Shown: positions 50,931 to 60,171, counted from the stretch's first letter. The stretch is 64,000 nucleotides of DNA from Pyrobaculum ferrireducens (GCF_000234805.1 NC_016645.1:124001-188000); one strand, 5' to 3'. The notes: generated by a model from the sequence alone, not told the origin. Numbers and translations: made by a program.

Positions 50931-51692
50931 CTATTTAAAAATGTCACCCACCGCCTCTATAGCCTTGAGAGCTTCGTAAAACGCCTTGTAAGCCGCGTCG
51001 GGATCCCTAAGAGGACGCGGGGCGTCCCCCCTCCTAAGCGCCTCTACAAACTCCTCAAGGGGCGCCTTCTCCGCGTATCTCAACGCGTTGGGATCACGGA
51101 GCAGAGAGAAGGCGAAGGTGGCGAGGTACCTAAAAGAAGTCCCCCCGTACCTAAAGACCTCCTCCCCCAGCTCGGCGTACACCCTCGCAAGGGCCAGCCC
51201 CACGGCGTAGCTCAGGGCTATGGTCCTCGACACGTAGAAGTCGTGCCTCTCCAAATCCCCCCACTCAACCCTAGCCCCCAGCTCCGCCCAGAAGCGGTAA
51301 GCCTCAGCCGCCCCCCGGCGCCCGGGCACCTCCATAACCAACACCCTCTGCCCCCTTATAGAAGGCGCACCAGGGCCAAAAAGCGGGTGAACCGAAGCCA
51401 CGAGCGCGTCCGGCGGAAAGAGGCGGTAAGCCTCGGCCACACCCTCCTTAAAGGTCGCTATATCCATCACAAGCCTCCCCGAGGACAGAGGCGCAAGAGA
51501 CTTCAAAACCCCGGCAACCTCCCAGAAAGGAACAGCCACCACAACAACCTCAGCCCACCCCACAAGCTCCCCCAGAGACCCCACGTCAGACCTCGACCTA
51601 TCCACGTCAAACACAGCCACCTCATGCACCGAGGAGAACTCCCTCCTCAGCCACGACCCCATAGCCCCACCCCCCACGACACCAACCCTCAC
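50931..51692 (-). CDS. tyrA: Prephenate dehydrogenase
   Basis: 253 residues from GTG 51692. I chose this start because the TATA box tttataag (51712-51719) is 20 nt upstream; in-frame GTG and TTG codons at 51704-51710 are too close. NAD motif VGVVGGGAMGSWLRREF, then ASVHPLFGPGAPSIRGQRV with the catalytic His and family motif, and a C-terminal helical dimerisation domain. It oxidises prephenate to 4-hydroxyphenylpyruvate on the way to tyrosine. The TATA box also serves the divergent nuclease-like gene. Confidence 0.9.
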   Translation of the reverse strand: MRVGVVGGGAMGSWLRREFSSVHEVAVFDVDRSRSDVGSLGELVGWAEVVVVAVPFWEVAGVLKSLAPLSSGRLVMDIATFKEGVAEAYRLFPPDALVASVHPLFGPGAPSIRGQRVLVMEVPGRRGAAEAYRFWAELGARVEWGDLERHDFYVSRTIALSYAVGLALARVYAELGEEVFRYGGTSFRYLATFAFSLLRDPNALRYAEKAPLEEFVEALRRGDAPRPLRDPDAAYKAFYEALKAIEAVGDIFK

Positions 51693-51740
51693 ACGGGGAC
51701 ACACCAACAACCTTATAAACGTAGATACACACCCATATAC

Positions 51741-52490
51741 GTGTCCCTCGCCGAAGAAATACGCCGAGTCTTGCTAGAGCACCCGGAGATTTTAGTGGAG
51801 GTGCTGACCGCTAGGCCTCACATTGTGTACGAAGCCCTCGCCAAGCTACTACCCTGGGAGAAGTTGATGAAGGAGATTGAGGAGATCAAAAACACCATGG
51901 CCACGAAAAAAGAACTAGAAGAGATTAAAAACGCAATGGCGACAAAGGAAGATCTCAAAGCCTTTGCCACGAAAGAGGATCTAAGAGTTTTCGCCACAAA
52001 GGAGGACCTAAAAGCCTTCGCAACCAAGGAGGATTTGAAGGCTTTCGCCACCAAGGAGGATCTCGCGGCGCTTGAGAGGCGGCTGAATCTAAGGATAGAG
52101 GCGCTTGGTGCTATGTGGGGTGTGTGGAGTGAGGAGGCCTTCAGAGAGGGGGTTAGGGAGTTGCTTAGGGAGGCCGGCTACGTGGTGGAGCGGTGGACCT
52201 ACTTCGACGACAAAGGCCAGGTCTACGGCTACCCAAGCGAGGTGGAGCTTGACGTAGTTGTAAAAGACGGCAAGACCTTCCTAGTAGAAATAGTCTCGGC
52301 AGTCAGAAGAGCCCACTTGGCCTATCTGCGGCGGAAGGCCGAGCTGTATCAAGACGTGACTGGGAGGAGGGTGGAGGGGGTTTACGTAATCACGCCGTTT
52401 ATACACGACAAAAACCCGCCGCATGTGGTCGCCGCGGCGCAGAAACTCGGCATAAGGATAATAAAGCCGGAGGAGGCGCCAGGCCCCTAG
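51741..52490 (+). CDS. PD-(D/E)xK-like nuclease-fold protein with tandem repeats (DUF3782-like)
   Basis: 249 residues from GTG 51741, 22 nt below TATA ttataaa. Domains: N-terminal helical region (RRVLLEHPEILVEVLTARPH), a coiled segment with 9-residue repeats (ATKEDLKAF and variants, about residues 67-110), and a C-terminal restriction-endonuclease-like fold. In the last, PSEVELDVVVKDGKTFLVEI keeps Glu and Asp, but the expected ExK reads EIV. Loss of the Lys suggests an inactive or altered enzyme. A related protein with an intact EVK lies at 61298-61831. Role unknown. Confidence 0.7.
   Translation: MSLAEEIRRVLLEHPEILVEVLTARPHIVYEALAKLLPWEKLMKEIEEIKNTMATKKELEEIKNAMATKEDLKAFATKEDLRVFATKEDLKAFATKEDLKAFATKEDLAALERRLNLRIEALGAMWGVWSEEAFREGVRELLREAGYVVERWTYFDDKGQVYGYPSEVELDVVVKDGKTFLVEIVSAVRRAHLAYLRRKAELYQDVTGRRVEGVYVITPFIHDKNPPHVVAAAQKLGIRIIKPEEAPGP
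51939..52073 (+). repeat. 27-bp tandem repeat, four full units plus one partial
   Basis: Units begin at 51939, 51966, 51993, 52020 and 52047 (partial), each encoding A-T-K-E-D-L plus three residues. Synonymous differences between units indicate protein-level conservation. Copy number may vary between strains. Confidence 0.85.
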
Positions 52491-53003
52491 TCAGCCCCCG
52501 CCCAGCAACGTCGAGTTGACACGCGCCACCACCCTCAGCGTCTTGTTCAGAGGCGTCTTCGCGTCGACAACCACCTCCACCACGGCCTCGATACACCTCC
52601 TAGGCTCGACGACGCCCCGCCACTCAGACCAGTTCCCCCACCTAACGCCGAAGTAAGACCCGTCAACATGCACAGCGAAAACCCTAACCTCCGGCGGCAC
52701 CTCCACCACCCGCGCCCACACAGCCGCCGGAGACTCCGCCAAGTTGCACAGCGGCATCTTGAAAAACACCACAGAGCCCCCCGGCGCCTCCAGCCAGAAG
52801 ATCTGCGTACCGTTCAGCCCCACCCCCATCAAAGCCGCCGGAGCCCCCCCGCCGCCCCCACCCACACCAGACGCGCCAAAAAACAAGCCCAAAACCGCAA
52901 AGGCGCCCAGAAGCAAAATCGCAAACACCCTCCTACGATCCTCCGGCAAAACCTCCTCCACAGCCTGCGCCCTCTCCACGGGCTTAACCTCCGTCATCCC
53001 CAC
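52491..53003 (-). CDS. Membrane-anchored surface protein, TasA/bundling-pilin-like
   Basis: 170 residues. A short cytoplasmic head is followed by a hydrophobic helix (RRVFAILLLGAFAVLGLFFG, about residues 24-43), a Gly spacer and a beta-rich ectodomain. The end, RRCIEAVVEVVVDAKTPLNK, then TLRVVARVN, aligns with the C-termini of the two pilin-like proteins at 58685 and 59581 (GQCAILGVDLIIDANAPYYK and GQCATAGVYIRIDPDLP), sharing the Cys and 'ID..P..KT'. It overlaps the 711-residue gene by 10 nt, last in the operon regulator-adhesin-pilin-like. Probably a minor pilin or anchor. Confidence 0.6.
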   Translation of the reverse strand: MGMTEVKPVERAQAVEEVLPEDRRRVFAILLLGAFAVLGLFFGASGVGGGGGGAPAALMGVGLNGTQIFWLEAPGGSVVFFKMPLCNLAESPAAVWARVVEVPPEVRVFAVHVDGSYFGVRWGNWSEWRGVVEPRRCIEAVVEVVVDAKTPLNKTLRVVARVNSTLLGGG

Positions 53004-55129
53004 GCCTCCAGCGTGTATAGTTTTATCGCCTCTCCGGCTTCCGTCTTTACGCCGATGTATGTGGGTGTTGTGGTGTAGCTACAGCCGTATCTCGCCAGTA
53101 TGTTGCCGTTTGCGTCTCTTATTATAACGTCGCCGAAGCCGCCCAGCGGCCTCAGCTCCACGTATCTCGCGGCTGGAAGAGGGCCGAGCGCGTACAGCGC
53201 AGAGCCGCACACCGCGCTGAAGCCAGAGGCACCCCTATACACGCCGAAGACCACGTTTAGAGCCGAGTCAAACACGGCGTATGTACCAACGCCAGTGAAG
53301 TTAGCCACGTAGGTAAGGGCGTTTGGGACAAGCGCCGCGTAGCCCACGCCCCCCGCCGTCGCCAGCAGGCAGCCGTAAGACTGCCAGACGTAGCCCAGCG
53401 AGCTCCAGCCGGCAGGCGGAGGACACGCGCTGTACGTCACAGTCAAGTCGTCCCAAAACACCCAGAAGTCGTCTACGGTGCCGTCTTGGTAGCCGCTGGC
53501 GTCCGCCACGCCCAGCGCCACGCCGACGACTGCGCCGGGGAGGTCGCCGAGGGTGATAGACCAGGTGTAGGTGCTTCCGCTGGCCATTGTGCCGAGGTTT
53601 ATGAAGCGGTACTGCGTCGTGTTGACACACGCGTCGGTGCATATAAGCGAGCCGGGGTTTACGAAGGAGGAGACTATGGCGTACGCGTCGCCGTCTGTGC
53701 GGTAGTAGATATACTCCACGTCGGCAACCCCGTCGCCGTTTGTGTCGACGCCGACGGCTAGAAAAGCGGCGTTGTTCTGAACATCCGCGGCATCTCTCAC
53801 ATACAGCCCCCTCACAGATATGGAGGCGCCGGCCGCTGGTACCGGGGACGGCAGTCTATACACGGCGACGGAGTAGCCGTAGTCGTTAGAGACGACGCCG
53901 GTGGAGCCGTAGGCATCCACCTCAGTAGCTAAAGAAGGCGGCGTCGAGGGGCTGTAGCTGGCGTCTACATATACCCGTGAGTCCGCCCCCCTCGTCAGCG
54001 CCGCGACGCTAGACGGGAGGACACACTTTAATGCGGCGAAGTTATCCCAGTAGCCCTTAGTATCGCCATTTGGAGAATACATACCAAAGGCGACGCCGAC
54101 GACGACGCCGGTGTCATAGATCTTGTTGATAGTCCAGGTTAGCCAGGTTGACGAGGGGGGCGACTTGGAGGAGTTTAATATGGCGACGTAGGGTAGCGAC
54201 CTGCCGTATATTACGCTCGATAGGGAAACTGGCTGTCTGCCGTCAACTGAGGTGTACCACACCACCTCGATGTCGGGAAAGCCGTCGCCGTTTGTATCTA
54301 TGAAAAAGTTAAGTTGCATATAGTCATTACCAGTCAAGGCGGCTTGAACCATGTAGTCAATTTTAAAGCTGGAGGTAGCTGGGAAGCCGCCAATCCACTG
54401 AGAAACGTCTATGAAAACTACGCCGTAGCCGTTTTTCCCATCAGTGTAGATAGAAGGAGGCGGAATCCCCCTTTTATAGTCAAGTGTTACTTCAGAGCCG
54501 CCGGTTGTATATGTCTCGGCCCACGGCGGGAGTTGATCAAATCCCTCGACGATCCAACTACAGTAGCTTGCGAAATTATCTACATATTGGGAAACGCCGC
54601 AACTAAACGCCTGGTTGTAGAGCTTGGCCATGGGCTCCGCTGTGAAGTTTACCCACTGCCACGCGTATATCCCGCCTTGGTTAAACCAGGCCCTGGCCAG
54701 CACCGAGTAGCGGCTCGTGGTCGTGGTTGTCCACACCAGCGGCGCGGTGGTGGGGACATACGGCCCCCCGCTCTGCACGTCGGTGATCTGCACCTGACCC
54801 CCCAGGGAGATGGCGTAGGTGCCGCCGGGCGACCCCGCCCTAGCGACGGCCTCAAGCCTGGCCTGCCACCCGGGGTCTCTCGCCCGGAACAAGCCGACGA
54901 CGTACTGCTCAGGCCACCCCGGCATAAACTTCATGTAGTAATACGTTGCGTTCACATCGACGGCGGTGTACCACCCCCTCACGAGGGGGTACAGCGACGT
55001 GTTGACGTCTTTAGACACTGGGGGCAGGGTGGCGTTGAGGCGCCAGTGGACTGGGTTGAGAAATGAAAGAACCGCGTAGGCGGCCGCAACTCCTAGTAGA
55101 AAAAAGAGGGGGTAAGCCAGGCGCCTCAT
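52994..55129 (-). CDS. Large secreted surface protein of the pilus-like locus
   Basis: 711 residues. The N-terminal signal/anchor is YPLFFLLGVAAAYAVLSFL, then NPVHWRLNATLPPVSKD, which echoes the sequence after the signal in the small pilin-like proteins (NVTYWYVNTTQPPVKKY, NITYWVVNATRPPAMKY). The body is beta-rich and Ser/Thr/Tyr-rich, with repeated 'DTNGDG' calcium-type loops (IDTNGDGFPDIEVVWY, VDTNGDGVADVEYIYY). That pattern suggests two or more homologous jelly-roll or Ig-like domains. A tip adhesin or cell-wall anchored subunit fits. It overlaps the regulator gene by ATGA. Exact family not recognised. Confidence 0.65.
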   Translation of the reverse strand: MRRLAYPLFFLLGVAAAYAVLSFLNPVHWRLNATLPPVSKDVNTSLYPLVRGWYTAVDVNATYYYMKFMPGWPEQYVVGLFRARDPGWQARLEAVARAGSPGGTYAISLGGQVQITDVQSGGPYVPTTAPLVWTTTTTSRYSVLARAWFNQGGIYAWQWVNFTAEPMAKLYNQAFSCGVSQYVDNFASYCSWIVEGFDQLPPWAETYTTGGSEVTLDYKRGIPPPSIYTDGKNGYGVVFIDVSQWIGGFPATSSFKIDYMVQAALTGNDYMQLNFFIDTNGDGFPDIEVVWYTSVDGRQPVSLSSVIYGRSLPYVAILNSSKSPPSSTWLTWTINKIYDTGVVVGVAFGMYSPNGDTKGYWDNFAALKCVLPSSVAALTRGADSRVYVDASYSPSTPPSLATEVDAYGSTGVVSNDYGYSVAVYRLPSPVPAAGASISVRGLYVRDAADVQNNAAFLAVGVDTNGDGVADVEYIYYRTDGDAYAIVSSFVNPGSLICTDACVNTTQYRFINLGTMASGSTYTWSITLGDLPGAVVGVALGVADASGYQDGTVDDFWVFWDDLTVTYSACPPPAGWSSLGYVWQSYGCLLATAGGVGYAALVPNALTYVANFTGVGTYAVFDSALNVVFGVYRGASGFSAVCGSALYALGPLPAARYVELRPLGGFGDVIIRDANGNILARYGCSYTTTPTYIGVKTEAGEAIKLYTLEAWG

Positions 55130-55794
55130 GAGGCCGACGCCGCGAGGAAGTCTAGCTTCTCCCTATCCTCCAGCGGCAGTGCGTCTGGATCCACTGAGGC
55201 GAGGATTACCTCAGCCGCCTTCTTTGGGTTTGTGAAGTAGTAGGTCATGGGGCCTATCCTAATAGACCTCAGCCTGCCCTCCCTCTCCAGCACGTAGACG
55301 TGCCACTGGACGGCGCCCCAGCCCTTGCCCGTGGCCTTGGCTATCTGGGCCAGCGTCGCGGCGCCCAGCTGTTCAACCACCCGCAGTATCTCACGCCTAG
55401 CGGGATCCTCGCCAGTTGCCCTCTTGATGCGGGCGACTATCGGCGCCAGCGGGGCGGCGAGCAGTTCGCGGCGGTTGCTAGCAACGTGGCTGAGGCCAGC
55501 CGCCGCCGCGGCGCCGGCCGCCACCGCCAGTATAGGCGCCTCAGGCGCCGGGACGCTGGGCGGAGGCGGGGGCTTGGGGTACTCCACCGCCACGTACCCG
55601 CTGACGGTGGTGGGAGCCAGCGCCTTGTTCACGCAGGCGATCGCCACCAGCTGGCTCACGTGGATTACGCCGGTGGCGTTGCAGAGGCCGGGCGGCAGAC
55701 TTGCGTAGATCGTGGCAGTGGAGTTAGGCGGCACGTAGACTGGAAACATCCACATAGCCAACGGCGCCAAGACAACAAACACTGTAACATTCAC
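55126..55794 (-). CDS. Membrane-tethered winged-helix regulator
   Basis: 222 residues from GTG 55794. Order: hydrophobic N-terminal signal or helix (VTVFVVLAPLAMWMFPVYV), an exported domain of about 60 residues with two Cys, a Pro-rich linker, a membrane helix (APILAVAAGAAAAAGLSHV, about 86-105) and a cytoplasmic winged helix (RREILRVVEQLGAATLAQIA, then GAVQWHVYVLEREG). It thus joins an outside sensor to an inside DNA-binding domain, a one-component design. It heads the operon with the 711-residue protein and lies below the shared element at 55816-55835. Likely regulator of this surface locus; the signal is unknown. Confidence 0.7.
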   Translation of the reverse strand: MNVTVFVVLAPLAMWMFPVYVPPNSTATIYASLPPGLCNATGVIHVSQLVAIACVNKALAPTTVSGYVAVEYPKPPPPPSVPAPEAPILAVAAGAAAAAGLSHVASNRRELLAAPLAPIVARIKRATGEDPARREILRVVEQLGAATLAQIAKATGKGWGAVQWHVYVLEREGRLRSIRIGPMTYYFTNPKKAAEVILASVDPDALPLEDREKLDFLAASAS

Positions 55795-55815
55795 ATAGAC
55801 ACGGATAGTGCGGTA

Positions 55816-55835
55816 GATAAATATTTAACGTTGTG
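55816..55835 (-). promoter_or_regulatory. Surface-locus promoter element, copy 1
   Basis: On the minus strand: ACAACGTTAAATATTTAT. CAACGTT abuts an AAATATTTAT TATA box, 22 nt above the regulator's GTG. The same combination occurs at 59291-59310 and 59541-59560, and I did not notice it elsewhere in the window. Confidence 0.6.
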
Positions 55836-55849
55836 GCGTGGGCTAATAT

Positions 55850-56261
55850 CTACGGATCTACTCCGCGTCTAAGCGCCTCTCTGTAAATCACGGAGGCTAG
55901 CCGTAGTAAGTCTCTATATAGGCCCTCCTCTAGAATCTTCTGAACCAGCCCGGAGTCCCGTAGCCGTGGACCACGACGTCTCTAAAAAATTACCTTTCTG
56001 AACAAGGTTGCTGTTTAAGAGGCCGTGCTGAGCTAGGGCGGAGGGCACGTCTGAATATCTGCTCGGCGGCTCGGCCCCTAGCTCCACGAGCAGGTGGGCG
56101 GCGTCTATCAGCGTCTGTATCGCCGCCTGCATCAAGTGGAGAGACGCATTTAGCAACCCATAGTCCTCCACCACCTCCGCGGCGCCGTGCCTCCTCACCA
56201 GCTCGTCAAGCGTCTCCAAGTTCCTCTTCACCAAGGCGATTAGCGACGCTATTTTACCCAT
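55850..56261 (-). pseudogene. HepT-like HEPN toxin, frameshifted
   Basis: ATG 56261 begins MGKIASLIALVKRNLETLDE, followed by LLNASLHLMQAAIQTLIDAAHLL, the DUF86/HepT helical pattern. The HEPN RNase motif R-x4-H is found as FRDVVVHGYG in a second frame after a T6 run near 55985. A third frame continues VQKILEEGLYRDLL to TAG 55850-55852. Two shifts are needed. With the nucleotidyltransferase remnant upstream it forms a dead MNT-HepT pair. Confidence 0.65.
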
Positions 56262-56357
56262 AGCGACTCCGCAAACCTCTCCCGAGCCTTGGTCTTTGCC
56301 AGGTGGATCTGGAAATCTGCCCAGAGGGAGAAGGAGGTCGCCACGCATTCCACATAG

Positions 56358-56640
56358 CTACCCCTGGCGTATATCAGCCTCCCCGACGCCGCCCGGCACG
56401 TAGGGCAAGTCGTCGGTAGGTATCAAGACGTCCACGTAGTCGATTCCCAAAACCTCTGAGGCGTCTGCTGAAAAGCTTATCAAGAACTCGAGGTACCCGC
56501 AACCGCTGGCCAGCTTAACCGCCACGTCGACGTCGCTGAGAGGCCCCGTCCCCCCCTGGCTACGGAGCCGAAAAGCGTGGCGAACAGCACACATCAGCCG
56601 TACCTCTCCGCGATCAAGCGCCTCAGCCGGGTTCCGCCGG
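56358..56640 (-). pseudogene. Minimal nucleotidyltransferase (MNT antitoxin), frameshifted
   Basis: Two frames together give LFATLFGSVARGG and GPLSDVDVAVKLASG, the GS-x-DxD signature of minimal nucleotidyltransferases, split by a C7 run (+ strand 56550-56556). It continues FLISFSADASEVLGIDYVDV to about 56400 and then loses similarity. In intact systems MNT AMPylates the HepT toxin encoded just downstream, as here. Confidence 0.65.
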
Positions 56641-56651
56641 CGTTGGCACAG

Positions 56652-57014
56652 CTATATGATGAAGGGGTCTCCCAGCCCCAGGGCCCTGGACACCACTGCG
56701 AGGAGTATGATGTAGATCCAGGCCGCGGCTGCGAAGAGGTACATCGTCCAGCGCCTCTTGTACATCCCCCAGTAGGTGTAGGCCAGGGAGGTGAGCAACA
56801 GCGCCAGGGCCAGTAGGTAGGTGAATCTGGCGTAGAAGTGGCTCCACTGCTGGATTAGGAGCGTGAAGACGAACCCGGCGATGAAGGAGACGAGGACTCC
56901 CGTCCACACGGTGAAGGTAACCGGCCTCGTATAGTACATCAGGTAGATGAGGGGCGCCAGGGCCGCGATCACGCCGCCCGCGGCGGATATCAAGAGGGAC
57001 TCGACCCCGTCCAT
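56652..57014 (-). CDS. Four-helix membrane protein
   Basis: 120 residues from ATG 57014, which begins one nt after the upstream gene's TGA (tgatATG). Four hydrophobic helices are evident: SLLISAAGGVIAALAPLIYL, FTVWTGVLVSFIAGFVFTLL, FTYLLALALLLTSLAYTYWG and MYLFAAAAWIYIILLAVVS. No motif of a known family. It is co-transcribed with another small membrane protein within the surface locus. A membrane platform part for the pilus-like structure is possible but unsupported. Confidence 0.55.
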   Translation of the reverse strand: MDGVESLLISAAGGVIAALAPLIYLMYYTRPVTFTVWTGVLVSFIAGFVFTLLIQQWSHFYARFTYLLALALLLTSLAYTYWGMYKRRWTMYLFAAAAWIYIILLAVVSRALGLGDPFII

Positions 57015-57015
57015 A

Positions 57016-57426
57016 TCAAAACAGCCAGAGGCTGTACCTCCCCGTTGCCAAGGCAACTACGTACAGGGCGAAGAGGTAGACGTAGGCGACGCACGACGCG
57101 AGGGCGAGCTCCAAGTCCTTTTTCGAAGGCCTCAGGGCTACGTTTAGCTGGATTATCTGCGCCGCCAGCACGAGGGCCATTCCTATAAGCGCCGACAGCC
57201 TCCACGCCGAGATGCCGCCGTAGGCCACGGTTATCCAGACCGCGTATATATTCGCGGCCCCAGCCAGCACCAAAAAGGGCACGATTACGTCTCTGTGCTT
57301 AAAGAGGAGCTGGGGGGCGAGGCCGTAGTACCTCGCCGTCAGCCGCTCCGCGTACACCCTGCCAAACGCCACCGCCATCCCCGAAGCCACCCCGACGAGG
57401 AGGGCAACCCAGTTCACAGCCCCCAC
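57016..57426 (-). CDS. Small multi-span membrane protein
   Basis: 136 residues from GTG 57426, about 10-20 nt below TATA tatataaat (57435-57444). Four hydrophobic helices: NWVALLVGVASGMAVAFG, VIVPFLVLAGAANIYAVWIT, ALIGMALVLAAQIIQLNVAL and CVAYVYLFALYVVALATG, with a loop containing RLTARYYGLAPQLLFKHRD. First of a two-gene operon with 56652-57014. Family unrecognised. Confidence 0.55.
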   Translation of the reverse strand: MGAVNWVALLVGVASGMAVAFGRVYAERLTARYYGLAPQLLFKHRDVIVPFLVLAGAANIYAVWITVAYGGISAWRLSALIGMALVLAAQIIQLNVALRPSKKDLELALASCVAYVYLFALYVVALATGRYSLWLF

Positions 57427-57446
57427 GAAGTCTATTTATATAAGTT

Positions 57447-58685
57447 TTACGTTTTCCAAGGCCTTAGAAATTCCCTCTCCGCCTTCACGACCGCCGGCCA
57501 CCCGCCCCAGCTACCCCCCGGGTCGGCCACGACGTACAGCGGCTCAGTCCATCCCGACGGGGCGCCGCAGGGCGGGTTGCAGGTGTTGTACGGCGGCGTC
57601 CTGCTGTACACCCAGTACCTAGTGCCGTTAGCCACGTAAAGCCAGACGTCGCCCGCCCTCGCGGGTTCCGCCGCGGCGGCAGGCCTAAACAGCGAAACCT
57701 CTGTGGTGAGGAATGTAGACACTCCGAAGTCGTACCTCAGCACAGCCCCCCACATGCCCACCGGGGTGCTGTAGCTGTATATATAGAGTCTGTAGGACCT
57801 CCCGGCGGACACGGTATAGTTCACGACCCTCAGCGCAGTTTTATATTCGCTGTGTGTCCGCGGCGTCGGCGAGTCGAAGTAGGGCCCCGCGTAGCCGGGG
57901 AGCAACACGCCGAGCTTCGCCCTCAGTGAGGGCGGGGGCGGCACTGTGAGGTTCACGGCGCGGGGGCACGGGGCCTGGTAGACATACAGCGTGGAGGTGC
58001 CCTCAAGCTTTATAAAGGCGCCGAAGCGGGGCTGGCCGCCGGGGGACGGGACGTATACGGGCGGCACTATGTTCGGCACAGCCTCGCCGTAGTTCAGAAT
58101 CTCGGTGAGGAGCACCGACTTGTTGTACACAAAGACGCAGCCAGCCACAGGCAACCTCGCCAGGGGCCGCTCCCACACGTAGAACATGCCGTCTGCCCCC
58201 ACCTGGACGAACTGCCAGCCAGAGCCGTTGAGAACCACCACTGCCCTCTCCACGGCGCCGGGGTACCAGTCGATTAGCTTAATCTTGAGGAGGACCGCGT
58301 TTCTCCACCCGGAGGGGTGTGTGAAGTTGATAAAACAGTCGCCCTGGACGCCGGGGGGCACGGCCAGGTCTACGTAGTACTTGCCCGGCGCCCCGCCCAC
58401 AGACGCCACTGCAACGGCGCCGCAGGTGGAGGAGACGAGGACAGAGGTTGGGTAGAATATGCTCACCGCTATGGCCCGCGGGTAGCTCCACACGGCGTAT
58501 GGGGAGCTGTATAGGTACAGAGTCTTGCCCTCCACGGCGACGTGGCTAGGCACCTCGCCCACCGCCACCTCGGCCAGGGGGCCTGTGCGGAATGCGTAGT
58601 CGCCCCCCGGCGCGGTGAGGGCGATTAGGAAGACGAGGGCGGGGAAGAAGAGAAGTAGGGTTCTAGCCGCCGCCTCGCTTCTCAT
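57447..58685 (-). CDS. Secreted surface protein, unknown
   Basis: 412 residues; its ATG 58685 overlaps the pilin-like stop by one nt (TGATG), so it is the second gene of that operon. A hydrophobic N-terminus (RTLLLFFPALVFLIALTAPGG) is followed by a beta-rich, Tyr/Pro/Val-rich ectodomain with several Cys and N-glycosylation sequons. It has no C-terminal anchor. It may be an accessory subunit or cap of the fibre. No family recognised. Confidence 0.6.
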   Translation of the reverse strand: MRSEAAARTLLLFFPALVFLIALTAPGGDYAFRTGPLAEVAVGEVPSHVAVEGKTLYLYSSPYAVWSYPRAIAVSIFYPTSVLVSSTCGAVAVASVGGAPGKYYVDLAVPPGVQGDCFINFTHPSGWRNAVLLKIKLIDWYPGAVERAVVVLNGSGWQFVQVGADGMFYVWERPLARLPVAGCVFVYNKSVLLTEILNYGEAVPNIVPPVYVPSPGGQPRFGAFIKLEGTSTLYVYQAPCPRAVNLTVPPPPSLRAKLGVLLPGYAGPYFDSPTPRTHSEYKTALRVVNYTVSAGRSYRLYIYSYSTPVGMWGAVLRYDFGVSTFLTTEVSLFRPAAAAEPARAGDVWLYVANGTRYWVYSRTPPYNTCNPPCGAPSGWTEPLYVVADPGGSWGGWPAVVKAEREFLRPWKT

Positions 58686-59269
58686 CAGCCAGATGGCACC
58701 TTCTCAATGTTTATCTGGTAGGCGGCCAGGGTCTTGTAGTAGGGGGCGTTGGCGTCAATGATCAAGTCGACGCCTAGAATCGCGCACTGGCCCGGCTGAA
58801 GCGTCACGTAGCCCGTGGACGGGTCCACCACAGCCTCGTTTTGAATCACCGCCTGGTTGTCGGTTGCGTTGGTTGGCTGTATGAACTTTACAGCCATGTA
58901 CCTGATATAGTTAGAGCCGGGGTAGAAGTCCTGTAGTAGGCTGGCGTCCTTGATTCTTATCTTCACCGACACGTTGTAGTTGTTGCAGACGCGGAGGGCG
59001 TTGGTGATGTTGACTATGTCGCCAGGGACGCCTGTGACGTATACCCTAGTGATGTTGAGACCGGTGTTGGGGTCGTAGTACCAGTCGGCCTTGACAAATG
59101 CGCCGTTCATTACATAGGTGTCGTTGCCAACGTACTTCTTGACTGGGGGTTGCGTGGTGTTGACGTACCAATACGTCACGTTTAGAATAGACACAGTTGC
59201 AAACAGCGCGGCGGCTCCCAGCAACACCGCAAGCAACCCCAGCAACCTGGTTCTACTTCTCCCAGCCAT
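58685..59269 (-). CDS. TasA/AbpA-like bundling pilin 1
   Basis: 194 residues. N-terminal: RTRLLGLLAVLLGAAALFAT signal, then SILNVTYWYVNTTQPPVKKY. The mature part is beta-rich with LRVCNNYNVSVKIRI and the C-terminal GQCAILGVDLIIDANAPYYK. The size, the NxTYWxVN signature after the signal and the beta-rich body fit the archaeal bundling pilins (AbpA) of Pyrobaculum, relatives of the bacterial biofilm fibre TasA. This match is from memory. A near-identical promoter element drives the divergent paralogue at 59581. Start 59269 is 22 nt below the TATA box. Confidence 0.65.
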   Translation of the reverse strand: MAGRSRTRLLGLLAVLLGAAALFATVSILNVTYWYVNTTQPPVKKYVGNDTYVMNGAFVKADWYYDPNTGLNITRVYVTGVPGDIVNITNALRVCNNYNVSVKIRIKDASLLQDFYPGSNYIRYMAVKFIQPTNATDNQAVIQNEAVVDPSTGYVTLQPGQCAILGVDLIIDANAPYYKTLAAYQINIEKVPSG

Positions 59270-59290
59270 GTGTAGCGTATTTCTCCAAGG

Positions 59291-59310
59291 TTTAAATATT
59301 CAACGTTGCG
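59291..59310 (-). promoter_or_regulatory. Surface-locus promoter element, copy 2
   Basis: On the minus strand: CGCAACGTTGAATATTTAAA. The 8-bp palindrome CAACGTTG abuts the TATA region; the pilin 1 start lies 22 nt below. It is an inverted copy of 59541-59560, differing in one base of 20. Confidence 0.75.
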
Positions 59311-59540
59311 ACGAGAATATACAAATAGGGATACGAATATAGGGACTGTATATATCAAAACACAGACGGCACGGAGCAACCGCCCCGCCACACCACCCTC
59401 TGACATTTCGCCTGTGTCTCCCTGTTTGACTACACCAAATGATAAAAACATTCTTTATAAGTGGGTGGTATAAATCTACGGCAGCGGGTGGTGTTGTTGC
59501 CTGTATCGCGCCGTCTGGATAGTCGTGCGAATCTTCACGG

Positions 59541-59560
59541 CGCAACGTTGAATATATAAA
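59541..59560 (+). promoter_or_regulatory. Surface-locus promoter element, copy 3
   Basis: On the + strand: cgcaacgttgaatatataaa. Same palindrome CAACGTTG plus TATA; ATG 59581 lies 21 nt below. The intervening 230 bp (59311-59540) hold no gene but contain further AT-rich TATA-like sites (near 59355 and 59452). Confidence 0.75.
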
Positions 59561-59580
59561 GAGGTGTGTTTATGGGACTC

Positions 59581-60171
59581 ATGGCAAGGAAAAGGAATTA
59601 CAAACCGCTGGTGGTGCTGGCGGCGTTGGCCGCGGTGGCGCTGGTGGCGGCTGCGGTTACGTTTACCAACATAACGTACTGGGTTGTGAACGCCACAAGG
59701 CCGCCAGCAATGAAGTACCCCGGCGTAGACACCACCGTTGCTGGGGGTAGATACGCCAAGGTCAGCTACTACTTCGACAGCGCCAACGGCTACAACATCA
59801 CAAAAATCTCAGTCATCGGCTTCACCGGCGACCCCGTCAACTATACTGATGTAATCCGCGTGTGCAACTACTACGGCACAACCTCGGTGGTGGCTACTAT
59901 GTACTACAGAGGCATTGTGGACAATCCAAACAGCCTCGCCCGCTATGTCAAGGCGTTCTACGTCTACTGGACCGATCCATACGCCCAGCCGGGCACCGGC
60001 TTCATAACGACTACGAACTACCCGCAGTCGGCGTCTGTTACGATTGATCCAGGCCAGTGCGCCACTGCTGGCGTATACATAAGAATCGACCCGGACCTGC
60101 CGGCTGATTACGCCGACGGCAAGACTATACTGGCCACCTACCAGGTGGACATCCAGATGACGATACAGTAA
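59581..60171 (+). CDS. TasA/AbpA-like bundling pilin 2
   Basis: 196 residues from ATG 59581, chosen because it sits 21 nt below the TATA box exactly as in the divergent paralogue; upstream in-frame GTG 59566 and ATG 59572 are too close. It has the signal LVVLAALAAVALVAAAVTFT, then NITYWVVNATRPPAMKY, a Tyr/Asn/Thr-rich beta body and GQCATAGVYIRIDPDLP with KTILATYQVDI. Clear paralogue of pilin 1. A T5 run at 60187-60191 could end transcription. Probably a second major fibre subunit. Confidence 0.68.
   Translation: MARKRNYKPLVVLAALAAVALVAAAVTFTNITYWVVNATRPPAMKYPGVDTTVAGGRYAKVSYYFDSANGYNITKISVIGFTGDPVNYTDVIRVCNYYGTTSVVATMYYRGIVDNPNSLARYVKAFYVYWTDPYAQPGTGFITTTNYPQSASVTIDPGQCATAGVYIRIDPDLPADYADGKTILATYQVDIQMTIQ

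Follow-up and report, generated by a model that had tools for sequence, protein, structure and literature searches.

The closest described relative of the locus presented here is the AbpA bundling pilus of the archaeon Pyrobaculum calidifontis, a TasA-like pilus of the kind by which archaeal cells are linked to one another, reportedly described by Wang et al. in PNAS in 2022; PDB entry 7ueg is the solved structure of this bundling pilin. More distant counterparts come from other surface filaments. Chaperone-usher pili have lectin adhesins at their tips, and Sulfolobus possesses membrane-bound regulators of its surface filaments, ArnR and ArnR1. The N-terminus of the Bacillus accessory protein TapA resembles the donor strand of TasA, and it is in this strand only that the accessory protein is like the major subunit (PMC9674648). 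Finally, the Saci_0406/Saci_0405 thread of Sulfolobus is an archaeal fiber held together by donor-strand complementation, for which the adjacent Saci_0405 has been proposed as an acceptor-less cap (PMC9715654).

Within the 64,000-nucleotide stretch of the Pyrobaculum ferrireducens genome analyzed here (GCF_000234805.1 NC_016645.1:124001-188000; the window), positions 52491-60171 harbor a region that sequence comparison supports as an archaeal bundling-pilus locus of the AbpA/TasA type. An initial annotation had proposed a TasA-like bundling-pilus locus, and all four ORFs that it named were found at the positions it gave; the proposal is supported by the homology of its sequences to 7ueg as well as by synteny with the abpA locus of P. 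calidifontis. The locus also contains members absent from that annotation, namely g412, two small membrane proteins, a transmembrane HTH regulator and a shared promoter box. The pilus itself is of the already known AbpA kind. Its parts list and regulon provisionally appear new to the literature: our search, outside of which the primary AbpA structure paper lay, returned no paper that describes a tip, a base or a regulator for AbpA pili.

Compared with the AbpA pilus of P. calidifontis, the major subunit is homologous along its length (phmmer E 5e-59 to 7ueg) and the neighboring genes are the same, whereas a second pilin gene (abpA2), a divergent arrangement, an MntA/HepT-like insertion and a different allele of the candidate tip domain are features of the locus in the window. 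The Bacillus TasA/TapA/SipW system shares its donor-strand logic and an accessory protein whose likeness to the major subunit is limited to the donor strand (PMC9674648). It differs in that no peptidase family, SipW-type signal peptidases included, was found by Pfam and NCBIfam among the proteins of our cluster, in that the 711-residue protein g711 is far larger and has CBM-like domains, and in the presence here of g170, a membrane protein that resembles the acceptor half of AbpA. The Sulfolobus thread is likewise a donor-strand complemented archaeal fiber with an adjacent candidate cap (PMC9715654), yet its subunits belong to another family, and isopeptide bonds have been reported for threads and not for the bundling pilus.

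The major bundling pilin, abpA, occupies 59581..60171 on the plus strand, with its ATG at 59581 and an in-frame GTG at 59566, and encodes 196 residues comprising a signal or hydrophobic segment, the donor strand FTNITYWVVNATRPPAMKY and a disulfide-type pair, Cys95/Cys160. Its paralogue abpA2 lies at 58685..59269 on the minus strand and also matches 7ueg (phmmer E 1e-29). Both pilins align to 7ueg residues ~1-200, and a search of the whole PDB with the AbpA-family profile returned 7ueg as its sole match (E 2.5e-89); folds unrelated to AbpA, which would have spoken against the annotation, are not at issue for these two major subunits. As judged from sequence only, the predicted hydrophobic signal of AbpA is followed by a conserved donor segment with invariant N30, Y33, W34, N37, P41, P42 and K45. 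The annotation had drawn attention to a shared N-[IV]-T-Y-W motif after the signal, which indeed reads NITYW in AbpA and NVTYW in AbpA2; g711 has diverged to NPVHW in the window and keeps NVTYW in its relative in G001 (L044). It had further counted at least three pilin-like proteins, a count refined here to two full pilins with donor plus acceptor, one apparently donor-only protein of 711 residues and one apparent acceptor-half membrane protein of 170 residues. As it had also noted, the two pilin genes diverge from a single intergenic region (59270-59580), inside which are two copies of the same promoter box.

The abpA2 sequences form one Pyrobaculum clade, separate from abpA, with support 100/100. 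Between the window and its sister species (G009), AbpA2 is 95% and AbpA 88% identical, and abpA2 heads the accessory operon wherever it is present. This slower evolution and the operon-head position suit an internal or junction role for AbpA2. Since the cluster of G001, a single-contig genome of 2,222,430 bp, has only abpA2, AbpA2 may also form a shaft alone. This genome, together with the long separation of the abpA2 clade, lends some weight to the idea that AbpA2 makes up the shaft of a second pilus, used separately, and is not a minor component of the AbpA pilus; we consider this somewhat unlikely, as the two genes have a common box and control region and always occur with one accessory set.

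Several AbpA-related genes lie apart from the accessory set. In G004, a near-identical second abpA (L048, G004:C1:1464000-1480000), ~750 kb away, has the same promoter box and no accessory genes, and a 97-aa ORF away from the cluster (L059:5709-5999) encodes an AbpA-like signal and donor segment, FTNVAVFSVNASLPPGMKYAG, possibly representing a free donor peptide or a gene fragment. G003 has a truncated abpA (L046:8932-9297) with a decayed promoter box, CGCAATGTTGACTATTTAAA, and without accessory genes, and has apparently lost the pilus locus. AbpA-domain proteins are also encoded outside the main cluster at L090 (G045), L091 (G047) and L088 (G046), those of G045 and G047 being without the donor segment.

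The neighborhood is conserved well beyond the window. On the minus strand of the window, abpA2-g412-m136-m134 and HTH-g711-g170 are each tightly packed, with abpA transcribed divergently, and mapping of the loci of relatives in a search of 19 genomes of the family gave the conserved order abpA[-abpA2]-g412-m136-m134-HTH-g711-g170. The cluster was found in nine other Pyrobaculum genomes, with the exceptions that the G008 locus stops at a contig end, that m136 and m134 were not found in G007 and that the g170 slot of G010 lacks the gene. A second genus, which we take to be Thermoproteus (genus and family labels of the relatives are partly assumed, Pyrobaculum included), has the cluster in three genomes, without a clear g170. 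One genome (G002; 2,009,313 bp) encodes an AbpA that does not differ from 7ueg at any of the 204 residues, so that its locus is suited as the reference for the solved pilus; this P. calidifontis locus is complete, with homologues of g412, m136, m134, HTH, g711 and g170 around abpA. A more distant family of the same class (f14, presumably Thermofilaceae-like) has a diverged order, HTH-abpA-~460-480-aa protein-g711-like. Its AbpA homologues reach E 1e-42 and adjoin the HTH protein and the ~460-480-aa protein, which is weakly g412-like (E about 1e-3 in three); a large g711-like protein follows (up to E 1e-172).

Two members of the locus resemble AbpA in part. The candidate tip adhesin g711 (52994..55129, minus strand) comprises an AbpA-type signal and donor strand, a conserved N domain, two variable CBM22-like domains and a conserved C domain; the two DTNGDG loops noted by the initial annotation are present. 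The full AbpA-g711 profile-profile comparison gives P 1.2e-11, the shared part comprising the signal and donor segment together with the beginning of the body, and g711 matches AbpA over its first ~60-100 residues only. Restricted to the mature donor region, the comparison (hhalign) still yields P 2.1e-9, with a score of 61, where none of 300 shuffled decoys exceeded 25, and the donor segment of g711 retains an invariant N, N, P and K spaced as in AbpA. Residues 43-180 alone show no significant match to AbpA (P 0.05), and AF2 predicts a beta domain there. In the PDB, the only credible match to the g711 profile is 7ueg (E 2.2e-4). The AF2 model of g711 (pLDDT 84.5) is of low confidence at residues 25-41, the donor region, before continuing into beta domains, and this local low confidence in an otherwise well-folded model fits an unpaired donor strand.

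Beyond the donor segment, g711 is predicted from its model to carry two CBM22-like domains. Foldseek ranked tandem CBM22 xylan-binding domains best (E 2.9e-9, probability 1.0), with the proviso that the global TM scores are low (about 0.3 for the tandem and 0.47-0.49 for single domains) and that beta-sandwich matches are promiscuous. When the window is compared with G009, its nearest relative, the neighbors of g711 are 88-99% identical, and g711 itself is 61% identical overall, with 98% in the N domain and 25% in domain 1. Swapping of g711 domains between species explains this pattern best, because domain 1, only 25% identical to that of the nearest relative, is 47-54% identical to those of more distant species (G007 and two genomes of another genus), while the N domain stands at 98%. 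Such exchange is the behavior expected of an exposed recognition domain.

Its apparent complement is g170 (52491..53003, minus strand), the candidate membrane base, in which an acidic/basic N-terminal cytoplasmic tail and one TM segment, seemingly an uncleaved membrane anchor, are followed by a Cys and the [IV]D..P..KT half of AbpA, without a donor strand. The C-terminal Cys-to-ID..P..KT pattern that the annotation ascribed to this protein is real, though weaker here than in the pilins and reading VD instead of ID. With signal/TM and bridging sequences removed, the g170 and AbpA ectodomains align (hhalign) over 37 C-terminal columns with P 1.5e-4 and a score of 31.8, the best of 300 column-shuffled decoys scoring 23.8. 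The two are bridged by AbpA-family members that lack a donor strand and match the AbpA and g170 profiles with E 3e-47 and 4e-12, respectively, in G010, whose protein belonged to the training set of the AbpA profile, and E 3e-14 and 6e-9 in G045. The relationship of g170 to the C-terminal half of AbpA thus looks weak when compared directly and stronger via the bridging homologues. The g170 profile returned no match in the PDB. Nor is g170 universal: none was found in G013 or G015, and the match to its profile in G016 is an AbpA frame only.

Together, these features suggest how the fiber might be built. AbpA and AbpA2 would leave the cell through a Sec-type signal, after which the freed N-terminal strand of each would enter the next subunit by donor-strand exchange. 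As g711 has the donor segment and apparently lacks the Cys-containing C-terminal half of AbpA, it would act as a donor-only tip, donating to the last shaft subunit and capping the distal end with its variable, putatively carbohydrate-binding domains. As g170 appears to keep the C-terminal half of AbpA and a membrane anchor and lacks the donor strand, it would be an acceptor-only base, accepting the first subunit and holding the fiber at the cell surface. The putative chain would then run from g170, which accepts, through the AbpA/AbpA2 shaft, which accepts and donates, to g711, which donates. A predicted donor-strand shaft with a carbohydrate-binding tip recalls chaperone-usher pili, although here neither usher nor chaperone was found, the proteins are unrelated, and the base would be an acceptor-only TM protein.

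The same data could be read in the opposite direction, with g711 initiating the fiber in the manner of TapA, on the cell surface or close to it, and g170 acting as a terminator or quality-control cap. TapA does give the first donor strand in Bacillus (PMC9674648), and the likeness of g711 to the major subunit is confined to its donor segment. We nevertheless regard this polarity as unlikely, considering that g711 has no C-terminal anchor, that in g170 a charged N-terminal tail leads into a TM segment, and that the variable, glycan-binding-like domains of g711 are in keeping with an exposed site at the distal end. Another alternative would have g711 and g170 outside the pilus altogether, as co-regulated surface proteins (e.g., S-layer or cell-wall glycan-binding proteins) that borrowed the AbpA signal and N-terminal segment. 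Here, the partial nature of their AbpA similarity and the size of g711, far larger than the pilins, have to be set against linkage conserved across families, a common and exclusive promoter box, and the fact that the segment in common is the donor strand itself with its invariant positions kept; of the alternatives weighed, this one strikes us as the least likely.

The remaining membrane proteins of the preferred pilus model, in which g711 is the tip and g170 the base, would help in export, assembly or anchoring. The largest is g412 (57447..58685, minus strand), an extracytoplasmic protein with an N-terminal TM segment and multiple beta domains and of no known family, which adjoins abpA or abpA2 wherever a Pyrobaculum/Thermoproteus locus is intact. 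Its AF2 model (pLDDT 87) contains several confident beta domains, and none of the top 50 matches to PDB folds had a TM score above 0.22. It is presumed to be an assembly or anchoring factor; it was also considered as a pilin and rejected (P 0.26 in the AbpA profile comparison, no convincing fold match). In two relatives, g412 is split into two frames, at a G9 run in P. oguniense TE7 (G005, L049:8030-8200) and at a (TA)6 run in Pyrobaculum sp. WP30 (G006, L050:8880-9110), which could mean that the pilus undergoes phase variation by slippage or that the sequences contain errors. The small multi-TM proteins m136 (57016..57426, minus strand; 39-99% identity, TM-like segments) and m134 (56652..57014, minus strand; 120 aa from its ATG) are conserved in the cluster, and weak homologues of m134 adjoin the abpA loci of f14 (E about 1e-8). 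Neither Pfam nor NCBIfam placed the pilins, g711, g412, g170 or the small membrane proteins in a usable family.

Two further neighbors deserve mention. Between m134 and the HTH gene, 55914-56594 contains a HepT-like gene (PF01934, E 2.5e-5) and a short MntA-like nucleotidyltransferase-type ORF, with related pieces at the same place in G009, G001 and G007; present in some relatives only, these genes were excluded as pilus parts. Adjoining g170, 51243-52490 encodes a DUF3782/PDDEXK_10 protein with ATKEDLK-type repeats.

The regulatory side of the locus centers on a transmembrane one-component protein (55126..55794, minus strand), with an N-terminal hydrophobic segment, a ~65-aa ectodomain containing two conserved Cys, a TM segment and a cytoplasmic C-terminal winged helix. 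Its match to Pfam HTH_24 is sub-threshold (E 0.0012), and no AbpA-like character is recognizable in its ectodomain (profile P 0.05). It is conserved in the cluster, and homologues of it also occur in f14. ArnR and ArnR1 are similarly TM-anchored winged-helix proteins encoded beside filament genes, though with a different domain order, the likeness being one of description only.

A promoter box, CRCAACGTTRAATATWTA, precedes abpA, abpA2 and this membrane-HTH gene. The copy before abpA is CGCAACGTTGAATATATAAA (59541..59560, plus strand; -40 to -21 from the ATG), that before abpA2 is CGCAACGTTGAATATTTAAA (59291..59310, minus strand), and that before the HTH-g711-g170 unit is CACAACGTTAAATATTTA (55818..55835, minus strand; at -41 of the HTH gene). 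Both pilin genes have the same 20-mer, CGCAACGTTGAATAT[AT]TAAA, at -40/-41. Across the whole genome, the 20-mer with up to 3 mismatches occurs at the two pilin promoters only, and the exact 18-mer at the three abp promoters only. Because every exact match to the core in 11 Pyrobaculum genomes (17/17) falls at an abpA, abpA2 or HTH promoter, one of them being that of the second abpA copy in G004, a dedicated abp regulon is indicated by these sequence patterns; the reversed pattern gave 0 matches in the same genomes. The f14 version differs, GAACTAAAARKTTTAWAW, lying before abpA and, in two f14 genomes, also before the g711-like gene, and 6/6 of its matches are at abp loci (7 f14 genomes searched). 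The Thermoproteus version is related, degenerate and has extra genomic matches, and exclusivity is claimed for Pyrobaculum and four f14 genomes only.

The obvious candidate for a reader of the box is the HTH protein of the cluster. It would bind at three promoters, those of abpA, of the abpA2 operon and of the operon that it forms with g711 and g170, and might adjust pilus production to a signal from outside, which might be the assembly of the pilus. That the box abuts or overlaps a TATA-like element at -40 to -21 raises the alternative that it is merely a strong BRE/TATA promoter and not an operator of this protein; the exact core, however, is found nowhere else in the 11 Pyrobaculum genomes, and individual lineages have versions of their own that are repeated at two or more promoters of a locus, so that we think this improbable. 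The reading of the box by the HTH protein, like the tip and base roles, the polarity of the fiber and sugar binding, is something we infer, and the model as a whole, an AbpA/TasA-type pilus with a g711 tip, a g170 base and an HTH regulator acting via the abp box, seems to us probable. A bolder proposal, which we advance only tentatively and would not yet bet on, is that the cluster is a complete, self-contained pilus design, in which the AbpA fold has been split into a donor-only tip (g711), whose glycan-binding domains are exchangeable, and an acceptor-only membrane base (g170), and in which a regulator encoded with the tip and base senses the state of export or assembly and governs a private three-promoter regulon via the abp box.

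How archaeal TasA-like fibers start, end, attach and are regulated are questions to which this locus offers concrete and directly testable answers, based on a conserved neighborhood with apparent donor-only and acceptor-half pilin derivatives, a rapidly exchanged sugar-binding-like region, and an exclusive box with a candidate regulator. These answers can be tested also in P. calidifontis, in which the fiber structure has already been solved.
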